A stretch of 64,000 nucleotides of DNA from Candidatus Zixiibacteriota bacterium (lineage in GTDB: Bacteria; Zixibacteria; MSB-5A5; GN15; FEB-12). The translations under genes and the position numbers were made by a program. This document shows, one piece after another, positions 14,464-33,186 of this stretch; within the stretch, counting starts at the first letter, position 1; every line of letters starts with the position of its first letter. A model generated the notes under the pieces. That model had not been told where the DNA came from and ran no database searches. It saw only the letters and a list, made by a program, of their open reading frames with translations. Where the stretch lies: NCBI GenBank assembly GCA_017999435.1, contig JAGNLV010000001.1, forward strand, positions 1,148,746 to 1,212,745. The letters run 5' to 3'.

Positions 14464-16587
14464 TCAGGCGGCGCTTTTCTGTTTCCCCTTGTCCTTCACC
14501 GACACGCCCACCCGGTACAGCATGTACATGAGCGCCCCGAACGGGATCAGCGAGAACCAGTCCGCCTCCGAGAGGTAGTGCGACCACCCGGAGCCGTTGA
14601 TCGCCTTGTCCAGTCCGAAGCCGGTGAGGCCGGCGACGACGATGCCCATGATGGCGGCGCCGGCGATGAATCCGGACGACATGAGCACGCCCGGCGAGAA
14701 CTCCGCCTCCGCGGAATTGCTCTTGCGCTTGCGGTCGACAATGCCGCGGATGAGACCGCCCGCCATGATCGGTGCCGAACTCGACAGCGGGAGATAGAGG
14801 CCGACCGCGAAGGGAAGGGACGAGATCCCCACCAGCTCCATCATGAGCGCCAAGAACACGCCGATCAGCACCAGCCCCCAGGGAAGTTTCTGCGTGAGGA
14901 TGCCGTCGATGATGAGACTGAAGAGCCGCGCCTTGGGCGAATCGAGCTTCGTCACCTGCTTGCCGTCGACCTCCGACACGACGCCCGCGATGCCGGGATC
15001 GACGAGGTAGGCGATCCGCCCCGAATCGTCGACCAGGTACTTGCCGATCAGGACGGTCCCGACCGGCTCGTTGACATAGTGCACGCGGTACATCGCGCCG
15101 TCCGGACCCTGCTGCGTCTCGGCGCCGGGAGCGGCGGCCGCGAGGTAGTCGGGGTGGCGGGCGGGGGTCACGGTCGTGTAGGCGTTGTTGAGGGCGATGA
15201 CGATGAGCCCGATGACCAGGGCGCTGGAGATGACGCCGATCATGATGGCGATCTGCTGGAGCCGGGGCGTGGCCCCGACGAGGAAGCCGGTTTTGAGATC
15301 CTGGCTGATTGTGCCGCCGTTCGAGGCGGCGATGCAGACGATCGCCGCCGTCGAGAGAGCCATCGCCCGGTACGACACGCCCGTCCATCCGACGGCCAGG
15401 AAGAGCAGGCAGGTGATCAGGAGGGTGGCCACGGTCATACCCGAGATCGGGTTCGAGGAGGAGCCGATTTCGCCGGTGATGCGGCTGGAGACGGTGACGA
15501 AGAAGAACCCGAAGAGGACGATCAGGACGGCCGAGATGACGTTGATGTGGAGGATGGGGGAGAGCCAGATGGCGAGGACCAGGCCGATTGATCCAAAGAC
15601 CACGACCGAGAGCGGGAGGTCGCGCTCGGTGCGGAGCACCGCCTCCTGCGCCCCCTTCCCCGCGCGGGAGTCCAGGAACGTGCGGAAGCCGCGGCGGAAC
15701 GCGGCGATGATGGTGGGGAAGGACCGGATGAGGCTGATGATGCCGCCGGTGGCGACTGCACCGGCCCCGATGTAGAGCACGTAGGCGTTGCGCACCTCGT
15801 TCGGCGACATGTCGCGGATGAGGGTCGTGGCCGGGAACATCGGCGCCGTGAGGTTCTCGCCGAAAATCGTGATCGCGGGGATGAGAATGAGGTACGACAG
15901 CAGGCCGCCCGCCATCATGTTCGCGGAGACCCGGCGGCCGATGATGTAGCCGACGCCGAGGAGCTCGGGCGTGATCTCCGCCGCCACCGAGGCTCCCTTA
16001 AAGAACCCCAGCATGCGGTTGGGAATCTCCGCCCACAGCTTCATGCCCGCGTTCAAAAACTTGTACGCGGCGCCCAGCCCGAAACCGAGAAAGACGGTCT
16101 TGGCATTGGTGCCGCCCTGCTCGCCCACGATGAGCACGTCGGCGCAGGCAGTCCCCTCCGGATAGGTGAGCCGGCCGTGTTCCTTGACGATCAGCCCCTG
16201 GCGCAGCGGGATCATCATGAGGACGCCGAGGATCCCGCCCAGGAGTGCCATCCAGCAGATGCTCAGCAGCTCCATGTCCTGGCCGAGCAGCAGGAAGACC
16301 GGCATGGTGGTGGCCACACCGAAAGCGATCGATTCCCCGGCCGACCCGGTCGTCTGCACGATGTTGTTCTCCAGAATGGTCGCGCGGCCGAGCACGCGGA
16401 AGAGCGTGATCGAGAGCACGGCGATGGGGATTGAGGCGCTCACGGTCATGCCGACCTTCAGAGCCAGGTAGACCGACGAGGCGGCGAAGACGATGCCGAG
16501 GATCGCCCCGAGAGCGACCGCGCGAAAGGTGAACTCGCGGAGACTGCGGTCGGGCGGGACGAAGGGACTGAAGTGCGGGTCTTTCAT
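14464..16587 (-). CDS. OPT-family oligopeptide/metal-chelate transporter
   Basis: 707 residues with about 14-16 membrane segments. It is an OPT-family secondary transporter, a proton-coupled importer of oligopeptides or metal-peptide chelates in the inner membrane. Family-typical motifs include GVVFAASSVYLALKVG-like sequence near 33-47, NNIVQTTGSAGESIAFGV near 73-90, RLTYPEGTACADVLIVGEQGG near 141, and SNPISGMT. The length fits bacterial OPT proteins of about 650-700 residues. AGGAGAG lies 6 nt before the ATG. It is a single-gene unit behind its own promoter, convergent with the tadA operon. The substrate cannot be told from sequence. Confidence 0.9.
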   Translation of the reverse strand: MKDPHFSPFVPPDRSLREFTFRAVALGAILGIVFAASSVYLALKVGMTVSASIPIAVLSITLFRVLGRATILENNIVQTTGSAGESIAFGVATTMPVFLLLGQDMELLSICWMALLGGILGVLMMIPLRQGLIVKEHGRLTYPEGTACADVLIVGEQGGTNAKTVFLGFGLGAAYKFLNAGMKLWAEIPNRMLGFFKGASVAAEITPELLGVGYIIGRRVSANMMAGGLLSYLILIPAITIFGENLTAPMFPATTLIRDMSPNEVRNAYVLYIGAGAVATGGIISLIRSFPTIIAAFRRGFRTFLDSRAGKGAQEAVLRTERDLPLSVVVFGSIGLVLAIWLSPILHINVISAVLIVLFGFFFVTVSSRITGEIGSSSNPISGMTVATLLITCLLFLAVGWTGVSYRAMALSTAAIVCIAASNGGTISQDLKTGFLVGATPRLQQIAIMIGVISSALVIGLIVIALNNAYTTVTPARHPDYLAAAAPGAETQQGPDGAMYRVHYVNEPVGTVLIGKYLVDDSGRIAYLVDPGIAGVVSEVDGKQVTKLDSPKARLFSLIIDGILTQKLPWGLVLIGVFLALMMELVGISSLPFAVGLYLPLSSSAPIMAGGLIRGIVDRKRKSNSAEAEFSPGVLMSSGFIAGAAIMGIVVAGLTGFGLDKAINGSGWSHYLSEADWFSLIPFGALMYMLYRVGVSVKDKGKQKSAA

Positions 16588-17247: not shown

Positions 17248-20200
17248 CTACTTCAACAAGAGCATCTTCTTCGTGTCGCGGAATGTCCCCGCTTCCAGGC
17301 GGTAGAAATACACGCCGCTCGCGACCCGGCTCCCGTCGGAGTTGGTGCTGTTCCACTCGACCGATTGATACCCCGCCTCCATCTGGCGGTCAACCAGCGT
17401 CGTCACCGTCTGGCCGAGAATGTTGATCACCTCGAGCCGGACGTGGGTCGCCACCGGGAGCGCAAACTGGATCACGGTCGTGGGGTTGAACGGGTTCGGG
17501 TAGTTCTGCGCCAGCTCAAACCGCCGCGGCAGATTCGGCGAACTGGACTTGCCGCCGATCCGGGCGATCATCGACTGGTGCGACATATCGGCCACGAGGC
17601 CATCGACCAGCGTCACCTCGCCCGGAACCGTGAACAGCGTCGTCGATCCCTGCGGCAGGTGAACCTCGCCTTGGAGATCGAGCAGGCCGACACGAGTGAG
17701 CCCATCGACCGTGCCGTGAACCAGCTCAAGGCCGGTTTCGGTGGTGTTGGCGATGCTGTCCGGGTGATCCGCCTGCAGTGTGATCTGCACGCCCATGAGC
17801 GGCTCGGAGGCTTCGAGAATGACCGTCGTCGCGGCGCCATCGAACTCGGTGCGCAGCGAGGCGATCGGTTCCGGGGCCGCCCGGCGGGCCGACTTGACAA
17901 CCCCGCAGGCCAAGGGAGTCTGGCAGTCGCGGAATATTATGCATATGAGCATGGTTGCATCGCCCACTGTAACCCCACCATCAGCGTTCACATCGGCTTC
18001 GTCGAGACACTGCGGCGCCGCACCGCCCCTGAAGAGGTAGGCTATGAGAGAGGTAAGATCGAGGATAGTGAGCTCGGGTGGCCAATCGTGAGTGAAATCG
18101 CCCCGCATCACACAGCACGGCGGCTCCTCGCCAATGATGATCTGGCCCGGGCTGAACGCCGGAACCGTCGTATCGCCGGTCGCCAGTACGAAGCGGTAGC
18201 GCAGGGTATCATCATCCGGCGCCACGTAAGTGGTCGTATCGATCAGGACCTTTTCGTCGTAGGCGAAGTCTCGCACCGTGAAGTGGATATCCGCCACCTT
18301 GCAGGTCTGCGGCACCATCATCGAATCCGTCGAATCCGGCATCGGCGGCGGCTGGATATCCCGATCAACGATGATGATCTGCTGGTCCGGGATGATCCAG
18401 GCGGTGTCGACAATAGCGTGGCTGAAACTGACCGAGTCGACCACCACGGCCGCAGACTGGGTCGTGAAGTAGCGCAGGGGGATGGTGAAATCCCTCAGCG
18501 TGTCATTGGTGTGCAGGTAAACCGGCACAGTTACGGTGCGCCCCGGCTGCGTGTACTGCGTTCCGACTGTGACTCCGGACTCGACAAACAGCGCCAGCGG
18601 GATCGTTTGGATGTGACGGCCGGCGATGTCCCGAAACACCAGCGTGGCGCGGTAGATACCGGGGGCCCACGACCCCGGATCCCCCTTGAGCGCAACCCGG
18701 ACCGAATCAGGGTTTGTGCCGCTCAGCTTGTCGATCTCGAGCCACTCCACATCGAAGTGCGGTTCCACCGTCCAGTTAAGCATACCGTCGCCGCAGGACG
18801 AGTTCACGTGAATCCACTGCGCCGGCGGCATGACGGTCGAGGTATCAGTGGTCGTGAACTCCATGTCGGTCTGGTCGATGTTCATGGGGATATCGATCGT
18901 CACGTTGATCGCGACATCGGCGGTGTCCGCGCCATAGCTGTTCTCCGCGATCACCCTGACCGTGTGCGTCCCCTCCGACGGCGGCGTGAAGTAGAGGGTG
19001 TCGTTGGCCCAGGTGGCGCCATTGGAGACGGTGACGTTATCCTGTAGATGGATGAGCAGTGGAAACTTCACCTCGGTTGGAAGTTGACAGCCGACCGATG
19101 TAAACGATGACGGGTTCTGAATCCATGGGAACCCATACCAACCGCACGCACCCGGGCCGCCGTGGGCACCAAGATCATTGCGAGCACCACCGAGTGATGG
19201 CCCGAAGCACACGTCATCATAGGCGGGATCAGGGTTCCCGGCATCGATACAGAGAGAGGGGAATAGAATGGTCAGATCCTCCTCGGCGCAGCCCGACGGG
19301 CTTAGGAACACCGGTCCCACATCAATGTTTCCCGTTCCGGGATAACCGCCTTGAACATCGCTAAAAGTAACGGCCACGTTGCCGGATATTTCAGGGTTAG
19401 TACCGTTATTGAAGAAGAAGATCGAGTTCATGGCGGCTATGGAGTCGCCGGTGCGGTACAACGCATTCTCAGTATTATTGGCGAATGTGCTATTCTCGAT
19501 ATTAGCGTCGGCCCCTGCAGAATATACACCTGCACCCCACGCGCGATACCCGTTGGCGCTGTATACAGTATTGCACGCAACCACCGTATTGGCGATTGTC
19601 AGTTCCCCGTTCTCATGACAGACTCCGCCGCCGTAGCTCATTGCGTTTCTGGCACCCGTAGACGCGTCGACGCGGCTATAGACATAGTTGCCGGAAAATA
19701 CCGAGTTGGTAATGATTGTTCTCCCACTTAAGTACGCCCCCCCACCCCAAGCATTCACGCCGCATCCAAACGTACAGCTGACGCGTCCGTACAAGTCATT
19801 GTTGAATATCTGGCATCGCGTGATCCGGATGAGTCCACTTGCAGTAGAGGCATAGATCGCACCGCCATAGACACTTCCCACCTGGCTGTTGCCTGGGTTG
19901 CCCCCGTTGTATTCGAATCTGCAGTCATCTACGATTAGATGCCCGCCCGTGGAGTGGCTTATGATACCGCCGCCGCTCATCCTAGCCGTGTTCGAGTCCA
20001 CAATACATTCCTGCATGAGCAGGCTGCCTGTCCCCAATTCCGCCCAAATCCCGCCGCCATGGGTAGACGGCGAGCTGTTTCCCACAAACCGACAAGCCCT
20101 CAGGCGCAACGTGTCGACGCTCAGCCGGCGATCCAGGTATATGGCACCACCGCCGGTCGGCGACGAGCACCCTCGTATCTCTGTGTTCTCGATTACTTGC

Positions 20201-20847
20201 TCCGTGTTGATCAGGCGCATGCCGCTGTTCTGGGCACCCACGATCTGGCAATACCTCAGCTGCGAACCGGGCATGGTCGCCTCGAATAGCATCCCTTGCC
20301 ATCTCTGTGTGCCCGCGCCGGCGAAGAGAATGGTGTCACTGGCTGTGCCAACGGCGGTGAGAATGCCGGTGACTTCCAGTTCGAAGTCGCCATAGAACAG
20401 GACCTCGACACCAGGCTGAATCGTGAGGCTGGCCACCGCCAGATTTCCCACAACACAGTAGGGCGACTCCGCCTTGGTCCATATGGCACCCGCCATCGTC
20501 CCCTTCTTCGTCGTCACTCCTGGGAACTGCACGATCAGGTCGCATGTATCCGCCCCATATGTGTTGGTTGCGATCACGCGGATGGTGTCTTTGACCGGCA
20601 TGGTCAGAGTCACCTGGATCGTGTCGTTCGCCCATGTTCCACCGGAGACCGAGGTAGCTCCCGTAATGGGCAACTCAATCACCGCGGTTGGGATGTCGTC
20701 AAGCGTCAGATCGATAGGCCCTGGCGGGCAGGTGATGACCGGCGGATCCTGCGCCCAGACGACTTGAGATCCGCCCATCGCCGATGCCAGCAGCACGCTC
20801 ATCATCAGGATGCCCCGGACAAAGCCGAGGCGGCCCTGCTTCTTCAT
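17248..20847 (-). CDS. giant secreted beta-helix protein with internal dockerin-like domain and T9SS-type C-terminal domain
   Basis: 1199 residues from the ATG at 20847 (AAGGAGGAG upstream), with a signal peptide ending VVWAQ. A pectate-lyase-like right-handed beta-helix (about 150-500) carries GGGIW, GGGVC and GGGAY-type turns of the polymorphic outer-membrane/Omp repeat kind. Ig-like and BACON-like domains follow, then a dockerin-like pair near 955-1020 (CCVMRGDFTHDWPP..., DLTSLIAYLFRGG, DVNADGGVTV). The last 90 residues are a FlgD-Ig/Por-type C-terminal sorting domain: AQNYPNPFNPTTVIQFALP, GVYFYRLEAG, and TKKMLLLK at the end. The frame is open upstream; an alternative ATG at 20967 with AAGGAGGTG would add 40 residues before the signal peptide. 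Confidence 0.85.
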   Translation of the reverse strand: MKKQGRLGFVRGILMMSVLLASAMGGSQVVWAQDPPVITCPPGPIDLTLDDIPTAVIELPITGATSVSGGTWANDTIQVTLTMPVKDTIRVIATNTYGADTCDLIVQFPGVTTKKGTMAGAIWTKAESPYCVVGNLAVASLTIQPGVEVLFYGDFELEVTGILTAVGTASDTILFAGAGTQRWQGMLFEATMPGSQLRYCQIVGAQNSGMRLINTEQVIENTEIRGCSSPTGGGAIYLDRRLSVDTLRLRACRFVGNSSPSTHGGGIWAELGTGSLLMQECIVDSNTARMSGGGIISHSTGGHLIVDDCRFEYNGGNPGNSQVGSVYGGAIYASTASGLIRITRCQIFNNDLYGRVSCTFGCGVNAWGGGAYLSGRTIITNSVFSGNYVYSRVDASTGARNAMSYGGGVCHENGELTIANTVVACNTVYSANGYRAWGAGVYSAGADANIENSTFANNTENALYRTGDSIAAMNSIFFFNNGTNPEISGNVAVTFSDVQGGYPGTGNIDVGPVFLSPSGCAEEDLTILFPSLCIDAGNPDPAYDDVCFGPSLGGARNDLGAHGGPGACGWYGFPWIQNPSSFTSVGCQLPTEVKFPLLIHLQDNVTVSNGATWANDTLYFTPPSEGTHTVRVIAENSYGADTADVAINVTIDIPMNIDQTDMEFTTTDTSTVMPPAQWIHVNSSCGDGMLNWTVEPHFDVEWLEIDKLSGTNPDSVRVALKGDPGSWAPGIYRATLVFRDIAGRHIQTIPLALFVESGVTVGTQYTQPGRTVTVPVYLHTNDTLRDFTIPLRYFTTQSAAVVVDSVSFSHAIVDTAWIIPDQQIIIVDRDIQPPPMPDSTDSMMVPQTCKVADIHFTVRDFAYDEKVLIDTTTYVAPDDDTLRYRFVLATGDTTVPAFSPGQIIIGEEPPCCVMRGDFTHDWPPELTILDLTSLIAYLFRGGAAPQCLDEADVNADGGVTVGDATMLICIIFRDCQTPLACGVVKSARRAAPEPIASLRTEFDGAATTVILEASEPLMGVQITLQADHPDSIANTTETGLELVHGTVDGLTRVGLLDLQGEVHLPQGSTTLFTVPGEVTLVDGLVADMSHQSMIARIGGKSSSPNLPRRFELAQNYPNPFNPTTVIQFALPVATHVRLEVINILGQTVTTLVDRQMEAGYQSVEWNSTNSDGSRVASGVYFYRLEAGTFRDTKKMLLLK

Positions 20848-21175
20848 ACACTCCTCCTTGGACCGAAACAGCCGAGGCTGTTCATGATATGATGTGGAAT
20901 CGCTATCCCCACGTTGAGAACGAGGAACCTGACGTTCGCTAACGCAAATTACCGATCTGAGATCCATTGTCAACACCTCCTTGCCGGAAAATGATTTCTT
21001 GCTCGGGATATCGTTCCACCCGCAACCGATCGTGGCGGCGTCGCACCGTGCGAAGGGATTCTGTCGAAATCCGGACCATTGTGGTTCTCCAATTCTGTTT
21101 ACCGGCCTGTGGTTGATAGGCGAACCACATTGGCGGTCGTTTGTCACGGCCGACCGGAAAAGAACCATTTGCGGG
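20848..21175. other. leader and promoter region of the beta-helix gene
   Basis: On the minus strand TTGACA (20973-20968), 16 bp, TAATTT (20951-20946) is a plausible promoter. The same TTGACA overlaps a second, well-spaced ribosome site and ATG (20982-20965). The stretch is therefore either a roughly 90-nt leader or the start of a longer reading frame. Nothing else recognised. Confidence 0.5.
20946..20973 (-). promoter_or_regulatory. promoter for the beta-helix protein
   Basis: TTGACA, 16 bp, TAATTT on the minus strand, about 92 nt upstream of the ATG at 20847. Confidence 0.5.
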
Positions 21176-23992: not shown

Positions 23993-24820
23993 ATGGACGA
24001 CCTTGGTAACTACGACGACCGGATTGGCAGATACATTCACGGCCGCCTGACCGAAGCGGAGCGGGTGGAGTTCGAGGAAGCTCTGGGCCGGGATCCGTCC
24101 CTGGTGGAGGAAGTCGGCCGGGCGCGCCTGCTCGCGGCGGGACTGGCGGTTCAGGCGCACGTCACCGGCGACCACCCGGAACCGTTAGACATTACGGCCT
24201 TTGCCCTGGAGCCATCGGAGTTGGACAGCGGTCTCCGCAGCCGCATCGAGGCGCACCTGCGGGACTGTCCGGAGTGCCGCGTGGAAGTGGAGCTGTGTCG
24301 GCAAAGCGCCCAGGCGATGGTCGACCGCCCTGTGCCCGCATCGGCAATCCGGCCGAGGTGGTGGGCGTGGCTGGCCGGCGCCCAGCCGCGACTCGCTGTC
24401 GCCACCGTGGCCGCGGCGGCGCTGGTGTTGTTCACCGGGCTCTTTCTCGGCAGGACGTTCTTCGCGTCAGCCCCGCCCACGGCCCGGATCGAGCTCTCCG
24501 CGGCGTCCGAGCGCGGCGAGCAGACTAAAAACCTCGTCAGGATCGGCGCCGGCAGCGAACTGGTTTCGCTTGAGTTTCTGGTGCCGTCGCGCGAGGGCCG
24601 CCGTTATGACCTCGTATTGGCCGATGGCGCACAGAATGAGATTCTCACCCTGCACAACCAGCTCCACCGTATTCCGTTCTCGCTGGCCGTTCCGGCCGCG
24701 TATCTGGCCGCCGGATCCTATGAAATACTGGTTATTGAACAGGTCGATGCATCACAACCCATGGACACGCTTGCACCCGATACCTTCCGCATCCGTTTCG
24801 AAACCGCGCCGGCTCGATGA
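23993..24820 (+). CDS. membrane zf-HC2 protein, probable anti-sigma factor
   Basis: 275 residues from the ATG at 23993 (AAGGAG upstream). The cytoplasmic N-terminal half carries the zinc anti-sigma signature H88-x3-C92-x2-C95 (HLRDCPEC). One membrane segment (about 133-153) and a periplasmic C-terminal beta-rich domain (about 160-275) follow, ending APDTFRIRFETAPAR. Anti-sigma factors of this class hold their sigma factor until the protein is cleaved or rearranged. The periplasmic domain resembles sensory domains of such proteins but I cannot name it. The position between the sigma gene and a CHAT protease makes it the natural candidate substrate of that protease; this is inference. Confidence 0.75.
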   Translation: MDDLGNYDDRIGRYIHGRLTEAERVEFEEALGRDPSLVEEVGRARLLAAGLAVQAHVTGDHPEPLDITAFALEPSELDSGLRSRIEAHLRDCPECRVEVELCRQSAQAMVDRPVPASAIRPRWWAWLAGAQPRLAVATVAAAALVLFTGLFLGRTFFASAPPTARIELSAASERGEQTKNLVRIGAGSELVSLEFLVPSREGRRYDLVLADGAQNEILTLHNQLHRIPFSLAVPAAYLAAGSYEILVIEQVDASQPMDTLAPDTFRIRFETAPAR

Positions 24821-24842
24821 GGGAACCGTAAGCCGAGCGGTC

Positions 24843-27635
24843 GTGGCTTGCGCGTGTCTGATCCTCTTCACCGCCGCGGTTCTTACCTCGCGGAATGCGG
24901 ACGACCAGCCGGCCGCGCCCGAGCCGCCGAGACTGGCGGCAATTGCCGCGGCCCGGGACAGCGCCGCTTTCGACAGCGCACTCGCCGTTGATGCCGCCGG
25001 TGTCCGACGATACCTGAAGACGGCTGTTACAGACCTCACGCGGCGCGCTGCCGAGGGAGCCGATGCCGCCGGCGGCGGCGAGAGTCTGGGTGTCAACTGG
25101 CTGGTGGATCGCTACACGGGAGTCACTTCTGTCGGCGACCTGTCTCGACAACGGGACCTGCTGTATGCCTGGGGTCCGGCTCAGGCAGCCGCGAAGACCA
25201 CGTGCGATTCTCTCTTCCGCCGGGGCAACCGGGTCTTCCAGCGCGAGCGCGATGACGGCCGGGCGGGAGCGGGGGCGCGGTTTCTGTCCCTGCTCGACAC
25301 GCTGGCGGCCCGATACGCGGCTCTCGGCGATGGTCCCGGGCGGGCAGCCGTGTGGTCGTATCGAGCCGGCATCCTTGAGCAGGGCGGCGACCTTGCCGTC
25401 GCGATCGCAGCGGCCGACAGCGCCCGCGCGCTGGCCGAAGCCTTTGACGCACCCGATCTCCTGGGCGACGTCCATTTGCGCCGGAGCGAAATCGCTCTCG
25501 TGCGGCAGGCCGACTACCTCGCCGCCGGCCTGCACCACCGGCAGGCTGTCGAGGCCTTTCGGCGCATCGGCGATCAACGCCGGATTCTGACCGCCGCGCT
25601 GCAGCAGTTCTATGCCCTCCACCAGCTGAATCGGACCGAGGAGGCCCTGAGAGCCGTTCGCGAGGCCATGCAGTCGGCCCGGCATCTCAACGACCGGCGG
25701 AGCGAATCATACTGCGCCCACGTCATCAGCGAGTGTCTGTTCGACCTTGGCGACTTCGACTCGGCACTTACCTACAACGACCGCTGCACATCGCTGCGGC
25801 TCCCCGTCGATATCGCTCTCCCCCGCCCAAGCGCTCTGAGCGACCTCGGCTACGCGCTCGCCACCCGGGGGCTGGTTCTGCATGCGCTTGGACGGACCTC
25901 CGACGCCCGGTATTTCTACGAGTGGGCCGATTCGCTCTTCTCGAAGGCCGTCGATACCCTGGGGCTGTTCCTCAGCGGCGGCCGGCTGGGGAACCTGTTG
26001 CTCGACGAAGGCCGCTGGGAGGACGCCGAAGGCGTGTTCCTTCCCATCCTGGCCAGGGCCGGGAAGTTCGAGACGCGGCTGGCGGCCGCTTACGGCCTGG
26101 GAGTCGCAGAGTACCGGCGAGGACGACCCCAGGAAGCACGCATCTATCTCCGGGAATGCGTGAGGCAGTGCGAGCAGATGCGCGGGCGGCTGCCCAGTCC
26201 GGACCTTCAGTTGGGAATGCTCGCCGACAAGGCCGGCTTCTACGATCTGCTGGTCGTGACATTCCTGGAGGAGTACATGGCCGGCGGGAGCAGCGCCAGC
26301 CTGGACTCGGCGCTGGCGTACCTCGACCTTGCCCAGGCGCGCTCGCTGGTCGAAAGCGCCGGGGAGGCAGTCGGCAGCCCTTGTCCCGAGGAGAACCGGC
26401 TTCTCTCTCGCCTTTCCGACCTGCAGTTCAGCCTGCTGGTGGACCGCGATGATCCGGCCGGGCTCGGGAGGTCCCAGCGGGCTCTCGAGGATTCGCTCTT
26501 CGCCGCGCGGGTCGAATGCGCCGCCGTCAGCCCGTCCGACAGCCACCCCCCGGCCCTGCCGACCAGTCGAACCCTCTGCTCAACGGTTTTGCCCCGCGAT
26601 CTGGTGCTCTGCTGGGTGCTGTCGCCGGCGGGGACGTTCGCTATCGCTCTATCGGCCGACACAGTCGTCGTGCGGCCGCTGGCGGCATCGCGCGACGAAA
26701 TCGCCGAACTTGTCCGGGAGTTCGTCGCCGCCGTGGCGGCCTATCCAACAGCCCGAGACTTCCCGGAAAGCCCGTACCACGCTCCCGGGCGGAAGCTCTA
26801 CGACATCCTGCTGAAGCCCTTCGTCAACGAACAGGACACGACCCGCCTGACAGTTATCGCCCCGGGTGCGCTCGCCGGCCTGCCGGTGGGCGCACTGGTT
26901 GATGCGCACGGCCGCTTCGTGGTGGAGAGCCGGGAAGTTGTGTACGCGCCCGCTCTGTCGATGTTGGCTCGGCACCCTGAGGAAGCGGAGCGGTCCGATC
27001 CCCGCCGCATGCTGGCTTTCGGCGACGCCCGGTACGACGACAACTCGGTTCTGTCCGGACTTCCCTTCTCATCCGAGGAGCTTGACCGCATCAGCCGGGT
27101 GTACGGCGCGAACGCCTCGGTCTATGCGGACTCGGCGGCCACCGAGGCGAATGTGCGGCGCACCGCCGATAGCTGGACGGGGATTCTGCACTTAGCAGTT
27201 CATGGGTTGGTCGATCCCGACGACTGGTCGCGTTCGGCCCTGAGCTTTTCGTTCGACTCCGACGGCCGGGGATCGGGCCTGCTTCACGCCTCGGAGATCG
27301 CTCACCTGAATATTCCTGCGGCCCTCGTGTTTCTTTCCGCTTGTGAGAGCGGCTCCGGGAGGCAGATTGCGGGCGAAGGCGTAATGAGCCTGGCGCGATC
27401 ATTCCTGGCGGCCGGCGCCGGCTCCGTGATATCGACCCTCTGGCGCGTCGATGACCGGGCCTCTGCGGAATTCGTCGGGCAGTTCTACGACCGAACGGCC
27501 GCCGCGGCGCCGCCCGCGGAAGCGATCGCCGAGGCGCAACGCCTGATGATCCATTCCGATCGCCCGCTCTACCGCCATCCGTATTTCTGGGCTTCCTACG
27601 TGCTTACCCAGACGGGCGCTCGGAAGACCAAGTAA
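24843..27635 (+). CDS. TPR-CHAT (caspase-like) protease
   Basis: About 930 residues from a GTG at 24843. GAGGGA lies 18 nt upstream, so the start is uncertain. A hydrophobic N-terminus (about 1-16) suggests a membrane anchor or signal. An alpha-helical TPR-like region (about 60-560) has repeated A-x3-G/A-x2-Y-A patterns such as EQGGDLAVAIAAADSARALA and HALGRTSDARYFYEWADSLF. The C-terminal CHAT domain (about 640-930) carries the caspase-fold dyad: His787 in HLAVHG and Cys834 in FLSACESG, plus GAGSVISTLWRVDD. CHAT domains are cysteine proteases, often activated through attached sensors. The gene is in the same operon as the sigma factor and its probable anti-sigma. Confidence 0.85.
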   Translation: MACACLILFTAAVLTSRNADDQPAAPEPPRLAAIAAARDSAAFDSALAVDAAGVRRYLKTAVTDLTRRAAEGADAAGGGESLGVNWLVDRYTGVTSVGDLSRQRDLLYAWGPAQAAAKTTCDSLFRRGNRVFQRERDDGRAGAGARFLSLLDTLAARYAALGDGPGRAAVWSYRAGILEQGGDLAVAIAAADSARALAEAFDAPDLLGDVHLRRSEIALVRQADYLAAGLHHRQAVEAFRRIGDQRRILTAALQQFYALHQLNRTEEALRAVREAMQSARHLNDRRSESYCAHVISECLFDLGDFDSALTYNDRCTSLRLPVDIALPRPSALSDLGYALATRGLVLHALGRTSDARYFYEWADSLFSKAVDTLGLFLSGGRLGNLLLDEGRWEDAEGVFLPILARAGKFETRLAAAYGLGVAEYRRGRPQEARIYLRECVRQCEQMRGRLPSPDLQLGMLADKAGFYDLLVVTFLEEYMAGGSSASLDSALAYLDLAQARSLVESAGEAVGSPCPEENRLLSRLSDLQFSLLVDRDDPAGLGRSQRALEDSLFAARVECAAVSPSDSHPPALPTSRTLCSTVLPRDLVLCWVLSPAGTFAIALSADTVVVRPLAASRDEIAELVREFVAAVAAYPTARDFPESPYHAPGRKLYDILLKPFVNEQDTTRLTVIAPGALAGLPVGALVDAHGRFVVESREVVYAPALSMLARHPEEAERSDPRRMLAFGDARYDDNSVLSGLPFSSEELDRISRVYGANASVYADSAATEANVRRTADSWTGILHLAVHGLVDPDDWSRSALSFSFDSDGRGSGLLHASEIAHLNIPAALVFLSACESGSGRQIAGEGVMSLARSFLAAGAGSVISTLWRVDDRASAEFVGQFYDRTAAAAPPAEAIAEAQRLMIHSDRPLYRHPYFWASYVLTQTGARKTK

Positions 27636-27925: not shown

Positions 27926-28199
27926 ATGAGCGGAGTGGGACGACGGGGCGGCGAGCTTTTCATTGTCGAAAACGGCGATTCCGACCGGAAAGCCTGGCAG
28001 TGTCTCCACGACTGGGCCGAGACAGCTGACAAGCTCGATAGTGCGACGGGGTACTGTGAGATCGGCGCTCTCCCTGGACGGTATCGAATGCTACCCGAAT
28101 GTCGAGGTCACGCCGAGCGTGACCGTCTCCCTCATGGCCGAGATCGACAGAGTGATCGAGGCCCGCGGCGGCTTGCCGGGGGCGTTTAAGGCGGACTAG
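27926..28199 (+). pseudogene. frameshifted remnant resembling the N-terminus of PLD-domain SNF2-type helicases
   Basis: The first frame reads ELFIVENGDSDRKAWQCL, then HDWAETADKLDSATGYCEIGAL. I recognise this as like the opening of large phospholipase-D/SNF2 helicases found in defence regions, whose usual form is FIVDNSD..., YL..W, and IATGYFEIGALLALDG. After IGAL (about 28070) the matching continuation (SLDG) is in another frame, which then runs to a stop at 28199 without the rest of the family's roughly 1000 residues. So this looks like a truncated, frameshifted relic. The identification rests on remembered family sequence; a small unrelated gene is the alternative. Confidence 0.4.
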
Positions 28200-28323: not shown

Positions 28324-30708
28324 ATGAGCGAGCATTTTCTCTCCGCCCTGCGGGCGCAGCTGCGCGCGCACGGGCAGGCGCCCCTGCGCGTCATCGGCAT
28401 CGACCTGGGCACCACCAACTGCACGGTCGCGGAGATTGTCGCCGACGGCGCGGCTGAGGATTTCGAGCCGCGGTGTATCGAGATCGAGCAGGAGACGCCG
28501 TTCCAGGGTGAGTACACGCACATCCTGATACCCTCGATCGTCGCGCTCCACGGCGGCCGCGAGTATGTCGGCGAGGGGGCCAAAAGGCTGCGGGCCGGCC
28601 TCGCCGGCCCGGAGACCGGCCTGGAGCGCAATCGGACGATATTCTGGGAAGTGAAGAACGAGATGGGGATCCAGCGCACCTACGCGCGCGCGCCGGAGGG
28701 GTATCGCGGCGCGGCCGAAGTGAGCGGTCGGATTCTGCGGTTTCTGGCCAACAGGTACCGGGCGGACCACGGGGAGCCGCGCAAGGCGGTGGTGACGGTG
28801 CCGGCTTCGTTCCAACAGCCGCAGCGAGAGGATACGCTCCGGGCGGCCAAGCTGGCGTCGATGGAACTGGCCGGGGGCGACCTGCTCGATGAGCCGCTGG
28901 CCGCCTTTGTCGACTTCTGGATGCGCGGGGAATTGGCGAAGGCTCTTCCGCGCGGAGAGGGCAATGTCCTCGTGTTCGATTTCGGCGGGGGCACTTGCGA
29001 CACGGCCGTGGTGAAGGTCCACGCGGGGGACGCCGCGGGCCACCTGAGGGCCTCCCCGCTCTCAGTGTCGCGCTACTACCGCCTCGGCGGCGGCGACATC
29101 GACCTGGCGATCTTCTACGAAGTCCTCCTCCCGCAAATAATGGAGCAGAACGGATTGAGCGAGCGCGACCTGGATTTCGGCGTGAAGAAAAACCAGCTCG
29201 AACCCGCGTTCCTCGGCATTGCCGAGTCGCTCAAAGTAGGTCTATGCACGCAGGTGCGGCGTCTCAGGGAGCTGGCGCGGGGCGCCGAACTCCCGATCGA
29301 GCCGGTCCAGAAATTGCCGGCGACGGAGCGCTGCCGGCTCACCAACGGCCGGGAGATCACTCTGCAGTCCCCCGCCCTGACACTTCCGCAGTTTGAGGCT
29401 GTGCTGGAGCCGTTTCTGGACCGCACCTTCGTGTTCCATCGCGAGACGGAGTACCGGTTGACCTGTTCGATCTTCGCGCCGCTTGAGGATGCCCTCGACC
29501 GGGCGGAGCTCGACGCGCGGGAGATTGATTGCTGCCTGCTGGTGGGGGGCAGCTCGCTGATCCCGCAAGTGGCCGATGCCCTCCGCAGTTACTTTGAACC
29601 CGAGAAAGTCGTCCTGTACTCGCACCCGGATCAGGTGCAGTCGGCGGTGGCGCGGGGCGCCGCCGCGCAGGCGCTCTCGCTGGCCGTCCTCGGCCGGGGG
29701 GTGCTGCAGCCGGCCTCGCCCACGGGCGTGTGCATCCGAACAACCGCCGGGAAGATGCAGTTGATTCCGCCTCACAGCCCCCTGCCGTACCCGGCGGCAG
29801 GCGAATGGGCGATGAATACCAACCTGGCTCTGCCCAAGCGGCTGAGCCAGACTGAACGCGTAGTCCGGATCGAACTCATCGGGACCGATGATTCGCTCAT
29901 CCAACGCTGGACCTGGTTGGTGCCCCCGGCAGCCGCTCCCGGCGAACCGTTGACCCTCCAGTACTGCATGGACGAGAATCAGGTGATCCGGTACCGGTTG
30001 GACTTGGAATCGGGAACCGGTCGGGAGGGTCTCACCGGGAGCACCGAGAACCCGATCCATAACGTGGTCAACCCCGACCTCAAGCGAATCAGGATTCTCG
30101 AACTTGAGGAGTGCCTCCGGACCTCGCTACCCGCCGGAGAGCAACAGGAGGAAATGGTGGTCGAAATCGCCAACTTGAGCCGGGAGCTTCGCCAGTATGA
30201 CAAGGCACGCTACCTGCTGGAGAGAGTTCTCCGCACCCGGGGCGGCGGCGACATCGGGGTTCTCAATTACCTGGGCATAGTGTGCGGCGAGCAGGGTGAC
30301 CGCCAGGCGGAGGAGAAGTACTACAGAGAAGCCGCCCGGCTTGGTTCCGATGCCGCTCAATTCAATCTCGCCTACTTCTACCGCGACCACGGTTCGCTGG
30401 CGAAAGCCGCCGAGGCGATTGAACGCCTGGTCGAGCGGTTCCCCAAGGGTCCGTATTTGGTGCTCAAGGCCGACATTGCCGAACGGGAGGAGCGGATTTA
30501 CGAGAGCAAGCGCGCTTTGGAGATGGCCAGGAAGGCGTTTGGGCCGGTGAAATCGCTGAGCGACTGGGAACTGAGTTGGTACGAGCACGGCGCCAAACTT
30601 GCCGGCGACGAGGCGGCGCAGGAGATGGTTCGGGCGGAGAGGAAACGGCGGCGGCGCTCAAACGCCCCCGAACCGAGCGGACTCCTTCCAGAAATGAGGG
30701 AGGCCTAG
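28324..30708 (+). CDS. Hsp70-like ATPase with C-terminal TPR region
   Basis: 794 residues from the ATG at 28324 (AAGGGG upstream). The actin/Hsp70 ATPase domain shows as GIDLGTTNCTVAE near 26-38, VLVFDFGGGTCDTAVV near 214-229 and LLVGGSSLIPQVADAL near 403-418. The canonical substrate-binding half is replaced after about 420 by a divergent beta-rich segment, and then by TPR-like helices (about 600-770: LREL..YDKARYLLERVL, YYREAARLGSDAAQFNLAYFYRD). It is therefore a DnaK-like paralogue, not the housekeeping chaperone, and no DnaJ or GrpE is nearby. It is followed after 8 bp by an SF1 helicase gene. Function unknown; a chaperone-helicase partnership is likely from gene order. Confidence 0.85.
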   Translation: MSEHFLSALRAQLRAHGQAPLRVIGIDLGTTNCTVAEIVADGAAEDFEPRCIEIEQETPFQGEYTHILIPSIVALHGGREYVGEGAKRLRAGLAGPETGLERNRTIFWEVKNEMGIQRTYARAPEGYRGAAEVSGRILRFLANRYRADHGEPRKAVVTVPASFQQPQREDTLRAAKLASMELAGGDLLDEPLAAFVDFWMRGELAKALPRGEGNVLVFDFGGGTCDTAVVKVHAGDAAGHLRASPLSVSRYYRLGGGDIDLAIFYEVLLPQIMEQNGLSERDLDFGVKKNQLEPAFLGIAESLKVGLCTQVRRLRELARGAELPIEPVQKLPATERCRLTNGREITLQSPALTLPQFEAVLEPFLDRTFVFHRETEYRLTCSIFAPLEDALDRAELDAREIDCCLLVGGSSLIPQVADALRSYFEPEKVVLYSHPDQVQSAVARGAAAQALSLAVLGRGVLQPASPTGVCIRTTAGKMQLIPPHSPLPYPAAGEWAMNTNLALPKRLSQTERVVRIELIGTDDSLIQRWTWLVPPAAAPGEPLTLQYCMDENQVIRYRLDLESGTGREGLTGSTENPIHNVVNPDLKRIRILELEECLRTSLPAGEQQEEMVVEIANLSRELRQYDKARYLLERVLRTRGGGDIGVLNYLGIVCGEQGDRQAEEKYYREAARLGSDAAQFNLAYFYRDHGSLAKAAEAIERLVERFPKGPYLVLKADIAEREERIYESKRALEMARKAFGPVKSLSDWELSWYEHGAKLAGDEAAQEMVRAERKRRRRSNAPEPSGLLPEMREA

Positions 30709-30716
30709 TTTGTGCC

Positions 30717-31976
30717 ATGGGCGTCTGGCTGGTACCTGAAAGCGAACTGACACCCGATCAGATTCGAGCGGTCCAATTGCCGACCGACGGCCACAAGGTT
30801 GTTTCCGGTCCCCCGGGATCGGGCAAGACCCTGGTGCTTGTTCATCGCGCGCGGTATCTCCTCGACTCAAAGGGAATCACCGGCGGGCAGCTCCGCCTGT
30901 TTGTCTATACCCGCACCCTTCGCGACTACATCCAGTCGGCCCTCAAACTGCTGGGTATTGCCGACGAATGCGTGCTCACTTTTGACGCGTGGTGTCGATC
31001 CTTCTATCTTTCGTGCGTGGGCAACCCACCCCCTAGGGATGAGGTTAATGGCCAGCTTGACTTCAGGGAGATCCGACGTGCTGTTCTCAGAGCGCTCGAG
31101 ACTGCACCGGTAGCACCGGTTTACGATTATGTGCTGGTCGACGAGGGTCACGATCTCGACGAGATTTCCTACAAGATCCTCGTCCGGATCGCCCGCCACA
31201 TCACTGTCTGTATGGACAGGAAACAGCAGATCTATGACGATGGTGCGGCCGAGGAACGGGTGCTTCACATACTCGGGCTGCCCAAGCGCAGCGTTGCTCT
31301 CCTTGAGGCGTATCGCTGCTGCCCCTACATCACCCGCCTGGCCGCGACCCTCCTGGACCGCCAGGAGCGACAGCCGTATTTGGGGCAAATGCGGACCGAG
31401 CAGGTGGAGAGGGAGAAGCCGCTGCTGTTCATCGCCAATGCACAGGAAGCGGAGCTTCACGAGCTCGCGCGGCAGATCAGGGAGCGCCAGAGGGTACAGG
31501 GCAGGAATGACGGCGGTGGCGGGAGCATCGCTATCCTGTTTCCCCAAAAGCGCATGGTCTTCGGATATGCGAACGCGCTGGCCGATCTCGGCGTACAGGT
31601 TGAAGTGCACCTGGACCGGCCCGCCCAGCAGGCCAGATATGAAATGGTTGATTTCCGGAACAATCTCCCCAAGATACTGACTTACCACCAAGCGAAGGGG
31701 CTCACATTTGATTCGGTGTTTATGCCGCGCCTGGTCGGTTACGCGTTCAAACGAGTATCTGAACCGCGCTTGCGCCGGCTGCTGTTCGTCGGAATCACAC
31801 GGGCCAAGAGCTGGGTTTATATGAGCACGGAGGACTCGCGGATGCTCCCATGCCTCAACGCGATCTGCGATGAGTCCGGAGACTTTCTGGCTGTCCGATA
31901 TTCCGGCGGGAATGACGGGCCGAAGCCGGACACTGACAGCGGTGAGGAAGACGGGTTGGCGAACCTCTTCACCTGA
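30717..31976 (+). CDS. compact UvrD/RecD-like superfamily 1 helicase
   Basis: 419 residues. Walker A GPPGSGKT (31-38), Walker B VLVDEGHD (about 139-146), motif IV region YRCCPYITR (about 199), motif V AKGLTFDSVFMPRL (about 325) and motif VI RRLLFVGITRAKSW (about 352) are all present. The 1B and 2B insertions of full UvrD/PcrA are absent, and the length is far below the usual 650-750, so this is a minimal SF1 ATPase. GGAGG lies about 13 nt before the ATG. The 8-bp gap from the Hsp70-like gene implies co-transcription. Possible roles are DNA/RNA remodelling in defence or repair; neither is shown by the sequence. Confidence 0.85.
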   Translation: MGVWLVPESELTPDQIRAVQLPTDGHKVVSGPPGSGKTLVLVHRARYLLDSKGITGGQLRLFVYTRTLRDYIQSALKLLGIADECVLTFDAWCRSFYLSCVGNPPPRDEVNGQLDFREIRRAVLRALETAPVAPVYDYVLVDEGHDLDEISYKILVRIARHITVCMDRKQQIYDDGAAEERVLHILGLPKRSVALLEAYRCCPYITRLAATLLDRQERQPYLGQMRTEQVEREKPLLFIANAQEAELHELARQIRERQRVQGRNDGGGGSIAILFPQKRMVFGYANALADLGVQVEVHLDRPAQQARYEMVDFRNNLPKILTYHQAKGLTFDSVFMPRLVGYAFKRVSEPRLRRLLFVGITRAKSWVYMSTEDSRMLPCLNAICDESGDFLAVRYSGGNDGPKPDTDSGEEDGLANLFT

Positions 31977-32124: not shown

Positions 32125-32237
32125 TGCGTCATCTGCGTCAGGCCTGACGCACCCTGTGACGCACCTGCGCGCCGGTAACTCGTTTCCCCTCAACACGATT
32201 TTTGCCGCTGCGTCGCGCTGCGTCACGAACTGCGTCA
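32125..32237. repeat. array of TGCGTCA motifs with an 18-bp palindrome
   Basis: Direct copies at 32125, 32134, 32219 and 32231, a variant TGCGTCG at 32209, and inverted copies TGACGCA at 32145 and 32157. The pair at 32134/32145 forms the perfect palindrome TGCGTCAGGCCTGACGCA (32134-32151). Neighbouring copies are 9-12 bp apart, close to one helical turn, as expected for cooperative protein binding. Confidence 0.7.
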
Positions 32238-33186
32238 CAAGACAGATCCATCCGGCCGTTCACACTCTTCGCACGGCGCCTCTCTTTCGCGATAACTCAC
32301 CTACACAGAATGCGATAGCGAATTCGTGACAGCGCCGCCCGCCGATTGGCACGCCGGTTGATATAACTGAGCGCAGCAGGCGCGCACACGAGCCGCAGCT
32401 TCAACATCACCTCCCGGCTGCCTCGCTGTGTCGACGCCTGGCTGACCATACTTAACGCGAAAGGTCTCCGTCGCCGGGCGGGCTTCCAAGCGAGCCCGAC
32501 TCAATCCGGAACCCGCCCGGCCCGGGACCTTAACCGCCGGCGGAGGATACGTTCCGGCCGGGTGTTTCGGCCGATGCGTCATCTGATGGCGCGCCGCGGT
32601 CAGCGCTCCCGCGGGAGCGCGGCAACCTGGTGCTCACAGGCAGACAAACCCCTTTGGGAGAGAGGGGGTAAGGCTCACATGAGGAGGAACACAAACCTAG
32701 ATTGAAAGCGATGGAGGGCCAATGAGACCGGACGGGTCGCATGGGGAGAGGCGACCGGTCGGGAGCGCGGGGCGGCAGGCACAGCACTTCGCGCAGCCGC
32801 CATCGGCTCCGCCGAATCAGCCAGTATCTCACGCGAGAGCCACTGGGAGTGTTCCCTCTCATTTGAGCGCGTGTAATCCTCGTGCGGCCGGGGCGGGCTC
32901 TCGGCGGCAGTGCGCCCACACCAACCGCCGACGCCCCCCCGGCCCGAGGAAAAAAGGAGGAACGAGGTCGTTCACTGGAAACGGAATCAGCAAGAGACGA
33001 TCGCCAGGGCGGCGCTGACTGAGTCGCGGGCCTCAGCCTGACCTTGCGTTCACTCCCCTCGACCGCCGGCGCGGAGGCATAGCCACATGAGTCAAGGGAT
33101 GAACGCGACGACGCGAGGGATGCGGGTCCGCGGGCCAAGGCCGGTTGACTCGGTGCCCGGCCGAAGTTCCGTCGTGCAGCGGAGGC

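Follow-up and report, generated by a model that had tools for sequence, protein, structure and literature searches.

We analysed a 64,000-nucleotide stretch of the genome of a Candidatus Zixiibacteriota bacterium (GCA_017999435.1, contig JAGNLV010000001.1, positions 1,148,746 to 1,212,745 of the forward strand), hereafter the window, and examined in it two adjoining genes (Table 1) that encode an Hsp70-like protein with tetratricopeptide repeats (TPR) and a minimal UvrD-type helicase of superfamily 1 (SF1). A first-pass annotation, made from the sequence alone, had described them as an operon of an Hsp70-like ATPase and, 8 bp downstream, a 419-residue SF1 helicase; both open reading frames (ORFs) lie where it placed them, with that spacing, and Pfam agrees. 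The Hsp70-TPR ORF comprises 801 codons, with ATG 28324 as its likely start and a TAG stop at 30706-30708. The helicase and this Hsp70 are each present in single copy in the 3.5-Mb genome. The ordinary dnaK, dnaJ and grpE genes are located away from the window (C1:1148746-1212745), with DnaJ at C1:204524 and C4:30881 and GrpE at C4:33089, in keeping with the earlier remark that no DnaJ or GrpE is near.

Domain structure of the two proteins

The AlphaFold model of the Hsp70 protein (42 family rows) had a mean predicted local distance difference test score (pLDDT) of 89.6. Structure comparisons covered model residues 20-574 of this protein and 6-401 of the helicase. Residues 21-579 of the Hsp70 model aligned with DnaK (7krv_B) over both the nucleotide-binding domain and the beta domain (Z 36.8, root-mean-square deviation (rmsd) 3.1, 469 residues aligned; Foldseek was also run). 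The substrate-binding half had been read at first pass as replaced by a beta-rich segment and TPR helices. This needs correction in one respect: the beta-rich segment is the peptide-binding beta domain itself, which is retained, and it is the helical lid that the TPR helices replace. Among the features of the Hsp70 superfamily, the actin-like nucleotide-binding domain with an intact ATP site and the beta substrate-binding domain are present, and the alpha-helical lid is absent. Residues D27, K111, E190, D219, T224 and D226, which we take to be the counterparts of the DnaK catalytic residues, are identical in 42/42 aligned Hsp70s. Within the TPR region, 98% of the proteins share N681, and more than 80% have a basic residue at the positions of K665, K627 and R599.

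The nearest structures to the helicase model (mean pLDDT 89.7) were UvrD, PcrA and Rep. The motifs and the RecA-like 1A/2A core of UvrD-like SF1 helicases are present, and the motif residues vary little or not at all among 30 aligned members. Of the 419 residues of the protein, 377 align across residues 7-662, that is, the whole, of the 645-residue Deinococcus radiodurans UvrD structure (4c2t_B; Z 36.7, rmsd 3.1), leaving approximately 270 UvrD residues with no counterpart. To judge from sizes and motif spacing, the missing residues probably correspond to domains 1B and 2B, which supports the earlier statement that the helicase lacks them.

The C-termini of the helicases consist of a variable linker and then an acidic-hydrophobic end (DDLDFL, DTLDFL, DDILDIL, SIDDLF, DDELFF and the like). 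A rule drawn from these tails, requiring a hydrophobic final residue and at least two D/E within the last eight, describes 32/34 helicases, as compared to 2/118 flank proteins, 4/118 proteins of the window genome and 76/1224 internal segments of the same tails. Of the Hsp70s paired with a helicase, 2/43 agree with it. Among the Hsp70s without a helicase, 3/12 (loci L046, L054 and L079) end in DEFSF, DDFSF or EDFSF, which satisfy the rule and resemble the helicase tails found elsewhere. We liken the helicase tails to the EEVD tails that, as we understand it, are bound in TPR carboxylate clamps; on their sequence, it is plausible that the tail serves as a tether to the TPR part of the Hsp70.

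Distribution and inheritance of the pair

A search of genome contigs with the single helicase as query gave no match, and the Hsp70 motif VPASF[QE]xxQRxD was used instead to scan GTDB representative genomes. The scan yielded at least 80 loci, and the counts below are among the matches listed. Seventy-four loci encode this Hsp70 family; six others (L016, L037, L048, L068, L072 and L078) were chance matches to the motif and were dropped. The helicase lies directly downstream in 43 of the 55 loci with at least 150 nt visible on the 3' side, with gaps of -3 to +27 nt and one of 81. Of 19 loci cut at the 3' side, 18 had a searchable genome; a helicase match was found in 12 of these, in 12/12 immediately downstream of the Hsp70 and on its strand, and the six genomes with no match are mostly fragmentary bins. 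The pair was thus found at 55/73 examined loci, in many phyla, and is conserved outside this genome, the opposite of what the first-pass annotation had named as grounds for abandoning its proposal. In L025, a further Hsp70 gene of this family begins about 2 kb past the pair, beyond an Mrr_N-like gene (start of the gene at 5387-5854).

In the phylum of the window, the helicase was found in 2/61 genomes, its own included, and the Hsp70 at E<=1e-40 in 1/132. The helicase of the second genome (G050) is 43% identical, and the 209 bases between it and the contig end hold a 64-residue open frame that resembles, by eye, the end of this Hsp70. Two plasmids, Persicobacter pPP6 and Antarctobacter pSMS3-3, each carry the Hsp70, the helicase and a third gene. 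Searches of phage records gave no helicase match, and the pair is not a common phage gene, because the Hsp70 motif occurs in only two IMG/VR contigs, one of them prophage-like with the Hsp70 after tail-type genes (named by eye).

A quick IQ-TREE phylogeny of 65 Hsp70s, supported by the Shimodaira-Hasegawa-like approximate likelihood ratio test only, separated a set of seven, mostly Bacteroidota (clade II; clade names are ours), 12 others (clade III) and a large group (clade I) that includes the window protein, whose exact position is left without support. The tree intermixes phyla, more than 10 in all, as in horizontal transfer. Several loci with no helicase form small nested groups (L018/L090/L082 and L046/L054/L079), as in secondary loss, and eight Verrucomicrobiota rows form one clade, several with common flanking genes, as in vertical descent. 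The Hsp70 and helicase distance matrices were correlated (r 0.96 over 36 loci, 0.86 over 27 clade I pairs and 0.72 over 20 clade I pairs once the Verrucomicrobiota clade was excluded); 0/2000 permutations reached as high a value, and the nearest neighbour was identical in 20/36. These figures fit co-inheritance of the two genes.

No description of this Hsp70-helicase pair was found in open-licence PMC full text, a collection outside which subscription papers and most preprints lie. We consider it very probable that the pair is a real, conserved and as yet unnamed module.

Genomic neighbourhoods and associated domains

Several relatives of the pair lie beside recognised defence genes. In two loci it is inserted into a bacteriophage exclusion (BREX) operon between PglX and PglZ-BrxL: in L176 (Verrucomicrobiota), PglX, an Hsp70 with a HEPN domain, the helicase, a third gene, PglZ and BrxL follow each other on a single strand, and in L178 (Lutibacter) the order is PglX, a 137-aa ORF, Hsp70, helicase, third gene, PglZ (PDB PglZ match E 2.2e-103) and BrxL. 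The two loci differ in clade and phylum, which suggests at least two separate entries of the cassette into this position of BREX, a position that we take to hold extra defence genes often. The cassette is an insert here and not a core BREX gene; BREX is not visible near most pairs, and none of PglX, PglZ, BrxC or BrxL was found among the eight window proteins scanned. No paper in open-licence PMC full text was found to contain BREX, Hsp70 and PglZ together.

Restriction-modification (RM) genes recur as well. Type III methylase and nuclease genes lie directly upstream in L177, and a divergent type I RM system (HsdS by Pfam; the rest named by eye) accompanies L180. In L014, L173 and L174, type IIG and PLD-Snf2 genes belong to the run that precedes the Hsp70, and in L186 and L187 type IIG is found with a YhcG nuclease or NERD-UvrD. 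In L182, ZorA (3e-115) and ZorB (2.3e-91) lie approximately 3 kb off, past a transposase-like gene. As a separate observation, an Hsp70 of this family with no helicase adjoins a Cas6 gene in L061.

When the three pieces of the pair had been removed from 121 flank proteins, the remaining 118 matched 188 PADLOC families at E<=1e-10, as compared to 53 for 118 proteins of the window genome; since this comparison counts families and not proteins, it is a weak sign of enrichment. Counted by locus, 28/74 had a defence-gene match; 11 of these were discarded, since the NERD-UvrD reference had matched the helicase of the pair itself; the 17/74 left, against 0/20 control chunks, are a description and not a test, as the reference proteins were drawn from the same loci.

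An R-x4-6-H motif, mostly RNxxxH (REVRNRH in L039), occurs in 6/6 members of the family in which a long N-terminal extension could be seen, and also in L009 (Antarctobacter) and L013 (the IMG/VR prophage-like locus). The Pfam model HEPN_Swt1 matched L027 above the cut-off (5e-12) and L009 below it (0.0015). In clade III, the Hsp70 carries an N-terminal HEPN RNase domain. The clade II loci L178-L181 have a third gene of about 600 aa in common with Persicobacter, and the clade III loci L182-L185 have another in common with L177. The two kinds of third gene were also considered as one family, which we do not claim: their profiles do not match (hhalign probability 0.1), and BLASTP found no likeness between the Persicobacter and Antarctobacter third genes.

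Relation to known systems

Defence cassettes that combine an Hsp70-like protein, an SF1 helicase and HEPN are already known: according to the accessible part of their description (PMC11090510), type II/III coiled-coil nuclease tandems (CoCoNuTs) comprise Hsp70-like CnuD, the SF1 helicase CnuH and HEPN, and share an association with BREX and RM. The present pair falls outside CoCoNuTs by their defining features. Its Hsp70 carries TPR and not HEAT repeats, and its ATPase residues are intact, whereas the same part of that source gives degenerate Walker A-like motifs for the CoCoNuT Hsp70 homologues. The window helicase is of the UvrD type (Z 36.7) and not the UPF1 type (Upf1, Z 22.0), and no match to the McrB-type GTPase (CnuB) or McrC was found among the Pfam-scanned window neighbours and a subset of flank proteins. 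A separate gene run on a Priestia plasmid (L010, 1612-8469) encodes a beta-CASP metallo-hydrolase, a hypothetical protein, an Hsp70 family protein and a HEAT-repeat protein. Kaur et al. 2020 (PMC7159879) described GTPase-HSP70 systems, which also place an Hsp70 in a predicted conflict system like the one considered here for the pair; as far as the accessible part of that report goes, they are based on GTPases, tubulins or GrpE/DnaJ, with no UvrD helicase described.

The best PADLOC matches of the window helicase were NERD-UvrD (C3a187, E 1.4e-25) and Gabija GajB (4.7e-19). However, it is shorter than these, its upstream partner is an Hsp70, and no GajA (OLD nuclease) or NERD nuclease adjoins it. 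Minimal UvrD-type helicases, 25-26% identical, also occur directly after DrmA-DrmB in plasmid loci like the defence island system associated with restriction-modification (DISARM) in Streptomyces (L006) and Deinococcus (L007); there no Hsp70 was seen, and the helicases have no acidic-hydrophobic terminus. In those loci, this kind of helicase is put to a different use. With DnaK/Hsp70 and UvrD/PcrA/Rep, the pair has its folds in common, and it differs by the TPR in place of the lid, the 1A/2A core only and the fixed operon.

The upstream relic and other features of the window

The first-pass annotation had noted a relic of a defence-type helicase next to the pair. We found this to be the start of a PLD-Snf2 helicase gene, identified only through full-length relatives of 1053-1077 aa, which match the PLD-Snf2 profile at E <1e-110; the relic had no direct match to that profile and none in plasmids. 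It is followed, in another frame, by a piece from the end of a type IIG-like methylase gene (28077-28187), whose source gene follows the PLD-Snf2 helicase in the relative L138. The 1151-aa ORF fits the IIG profile weakly (1.4e-6), and its counterparts in two other genomes fit strongly. It appears, from the two fragments, that a single deletion removed nearly all of two genes upstream of the window Hsp70. The order PLD-Snf2, IIG-like gene and Hsp70 is that of L014 (Algoriphagus; the L014 helicase is not in view).

Further upstream on the same strand lies a TPR-CHAT protein (24201-27635; Pfam CHAT E 5.7e-63, with weak PADLOC matches of BovA and Csx29 type). A link of the pair to this neighbour, as suggested at first pass, was not borne out, no recurrent flank family having been recognised as a CHAT protein. 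Just past the helicase gene, positions 32125-32581 hold 7 of the 11 TGCGTCA sites of the window (both strands), six of them within 113 bp; the total for the window is near chance. Two other genes on the minus strand encode a large FlgD_ig/Por_Secre_tail protein (17248-21168) and an OPT transporter (14464-16587).

Table 1. Positions of the gene pair, its domains and motifs, the upstream relic and comparison helicases
Feature	Position	Strand	Basis or remark
Hsp70-TPR gene, 794 aa	28324..30708	+	Pfam HSP70 E 1.6e-26 and TPR models; identity of 21-46% to 41 aligned relatives
Hsp70 nucleotide-binding domain, aa 20-455	28381..29688	+	Structure comparison; residues kept in alignment
Family motif VPASFQxxQRxD, aa 159-170	28798..28833	+	Pattern used in genome scan
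Substrate-binding beta domain, aa 460-579	29701..30060	+	Aligned to lid-truncated DnaK structures
TPR helices at Hsp70 lid position, aa 586-779	30079..30660	+	Pfam TPR models, AlphaFold model
Minimal UvrD-type SF1 helicase gene, 419 aa	30717..31976 (ATG 30717, stop ends 31976)	+	Pfam UvrD_C 3e-14, UvrD-helicase 4.7e-13
Helicase motif I GPPGSGKT, aa 31-38	30807..30830	+	Sequence
Helicase motif II VDEGHD, aa 141-146	31137..31154	+	Window copy alone has H145; Q in 29/30 aligned
Helicase motif VI region, aa 357-363, FVGITRA...	31785..31805	+	R362 invariant in 30
Low-confidence C-terminal tail ending EEDGLANLFT	31923..31973	+	Last 13 residues pLDDT <50
Relic, first 42 residues of PLD-Snf2 helicase	27947..28072	+	64% identical to start of 1053-1077 aa ORFs, three phylum genomes
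Relic, 37 residues from the end (28077-28187) and stop of 1151-aa type IIG-like methylase gene	28077..28199	+	54% identity, E 1.5e-8
Minimal UvrD-type helicase after DrmA-DrmB, L006	5983-7068
Minimal UvrD-type helicase after DrmA-DrmB, L007	6007-7128

Possible role of the pair

The pair, its conservation, the intact catalytic residues, the helicase tail, the HEPN fusion and the defence neighbours were read directly from sequence. Beyond them, we infer a physical complex and, with it, docking, gating, a substrate and a role in defence. On balance, such a role seems the likelier outcome, and it is somewhat more probable than the contrary that both genes form one two-part ATP-driven machine in defence against mobile elements. 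In the mechanism that we propose, the bare 1A/2A SF1 motor would patrol an invader's single-stranded nucleic acid or nucleoprotein, and bound protein would be read or stripped by the Hsp70, with its active ATPase site and beta domain. The acidic-hydrophobic C-terminus of the helicase would dock in the TPR (or beta) groove of the Hsp70, and the Hsp70 cycle would therefore gate the helicase motor. The output would differ by clade: the HEPN RNase on the Hsp70 together with the third protein in clade III, the third protein in clade II and, in part of clade I, to which the window belongs, a type IIG methylase-nuclease, PLD-Snf2 helicase or NERD-UvrD encoded alongside. Because the partner RM genes of the window are reduced to a relic, its copy may work alone or with different partners, or may be in the course of being lost. 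In its complete form, which we offer tentatively, the model describes a distinct and widespread prokaryotic immune module: the EEVD-like tail of a bare SF1 helicase would be held by an Hsp70 whose lid has given way to TPR, the motor would be gated through this grip, and the outputs would be exchangeable (HEPN RNase on the Hsp70, third protein, or neighbouring RM or BREX).

A number of observations weigh against this model. The evidence from HEPN and BREX was obtained in clades to which the window does not belong; in clade I neither the HEPN domain nor the third gene was seen, and the approximately 1.4 kb that follow the window helicase contain no third gene of the clade II/III type. A recognised defence context is present in a minority of loci (17/74), and no PADLOC family matches the Hsp70. 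The tail rule was set after inspection of the tails, its control sets include cut and doubtful ORFs, and the window helicase itself departs from it, its tail ending in T (EEDGLANLFT), as does the L065 tail. By the criterion used, 12/55 visible loci have no adjacent helicase, although in L066, scored among them, a helicase ORF follows at 73 nt, with its aligned portion beginning about 445 nt on. Co-divergence of the two proteins is no proof of contact, since co-inherited proteins correlate anyway. Finally, neighbours in many loci are ordinary: five clade I loci of Verrucomicrobiota (L026, L035, L057, L058 and L059) have a common upstream gene on the opposite strand and non-defence neighbours, and L019/L183, L071/L179 and L051 have neighbours of housekeeping type (named by eye).

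These ordinary neighbours, including the stable synteny of the Verrucomicrobiota clade, are what would be expected if the pair were a general chaperone-helicase for nucleoprotein remodelling, clearing stalled transcription or replication complexes, for example, and were only occasionally recruited to defence loci. HelD, to which the helicase model can also be aligned (8q3i_H, Z 27.6), clears stalled RNA polymerase complexes; moreover, no effector gene was seen in most clade I loci. We regard this explanation as possible but doubtful, given the patchy occurrence of both genes in their own phylum, the plasmids, the prophage-like contig, the two BREX operons, the HEPN fusions and the mixing of phyla in the tree. 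The first-pass suggestion of a role in defence or nucleoprotein remodelling stands in part: defence settings (BREX, RM, Zorya, HEPN fusions, plasmids and one prophage-like contig) surround a subset of the pairs, and in some lineages the pair lies among housekeeping genes.

The methylases that recur near the pair (type IIG in L014, L024, L042, L053 and L086, PglX in L038 and L075, type III in L177 and type I in L180) could instead indicate an assembly factor, not a sensor, that helps large methylase or nuclease complexes such as type IIG, PglX and type III to assemble or disassemble on DNA; we consider this improbable, as no methylase is visible near many of the pairs and the RM types found beside the others are organised in different ways. 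An RNA-directed, CoCoNuT-like system with the Hsp70 as RNA binder and not chaperone, which the HEPN RNase fusions and the shared protein types bring to mind, is very improbable in view of the invariant ATPase residues, the UvrD-like rather than UPF1-like helicase and the McrB/McrC result given above.

If the proposed role in immunity is correct, a conserved pair present in more than 10 phyla has been left unnamed despite its BREX, RM and Zorya settings, and an Hsp70 would serve as the switch of a helicase, with a predicted contact between tail and TPR. Such a chaperone-gated immune switch would reverse the usual arrangement, in which the Hsp70 tail binds to TPR, and the VPASF[QE]xxQRxD motif would be a marker for finding new systems. 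If the pair is a general remodelling machine instead, it would represent an uncharacterised partnership between an Hsp70 and a helicase.

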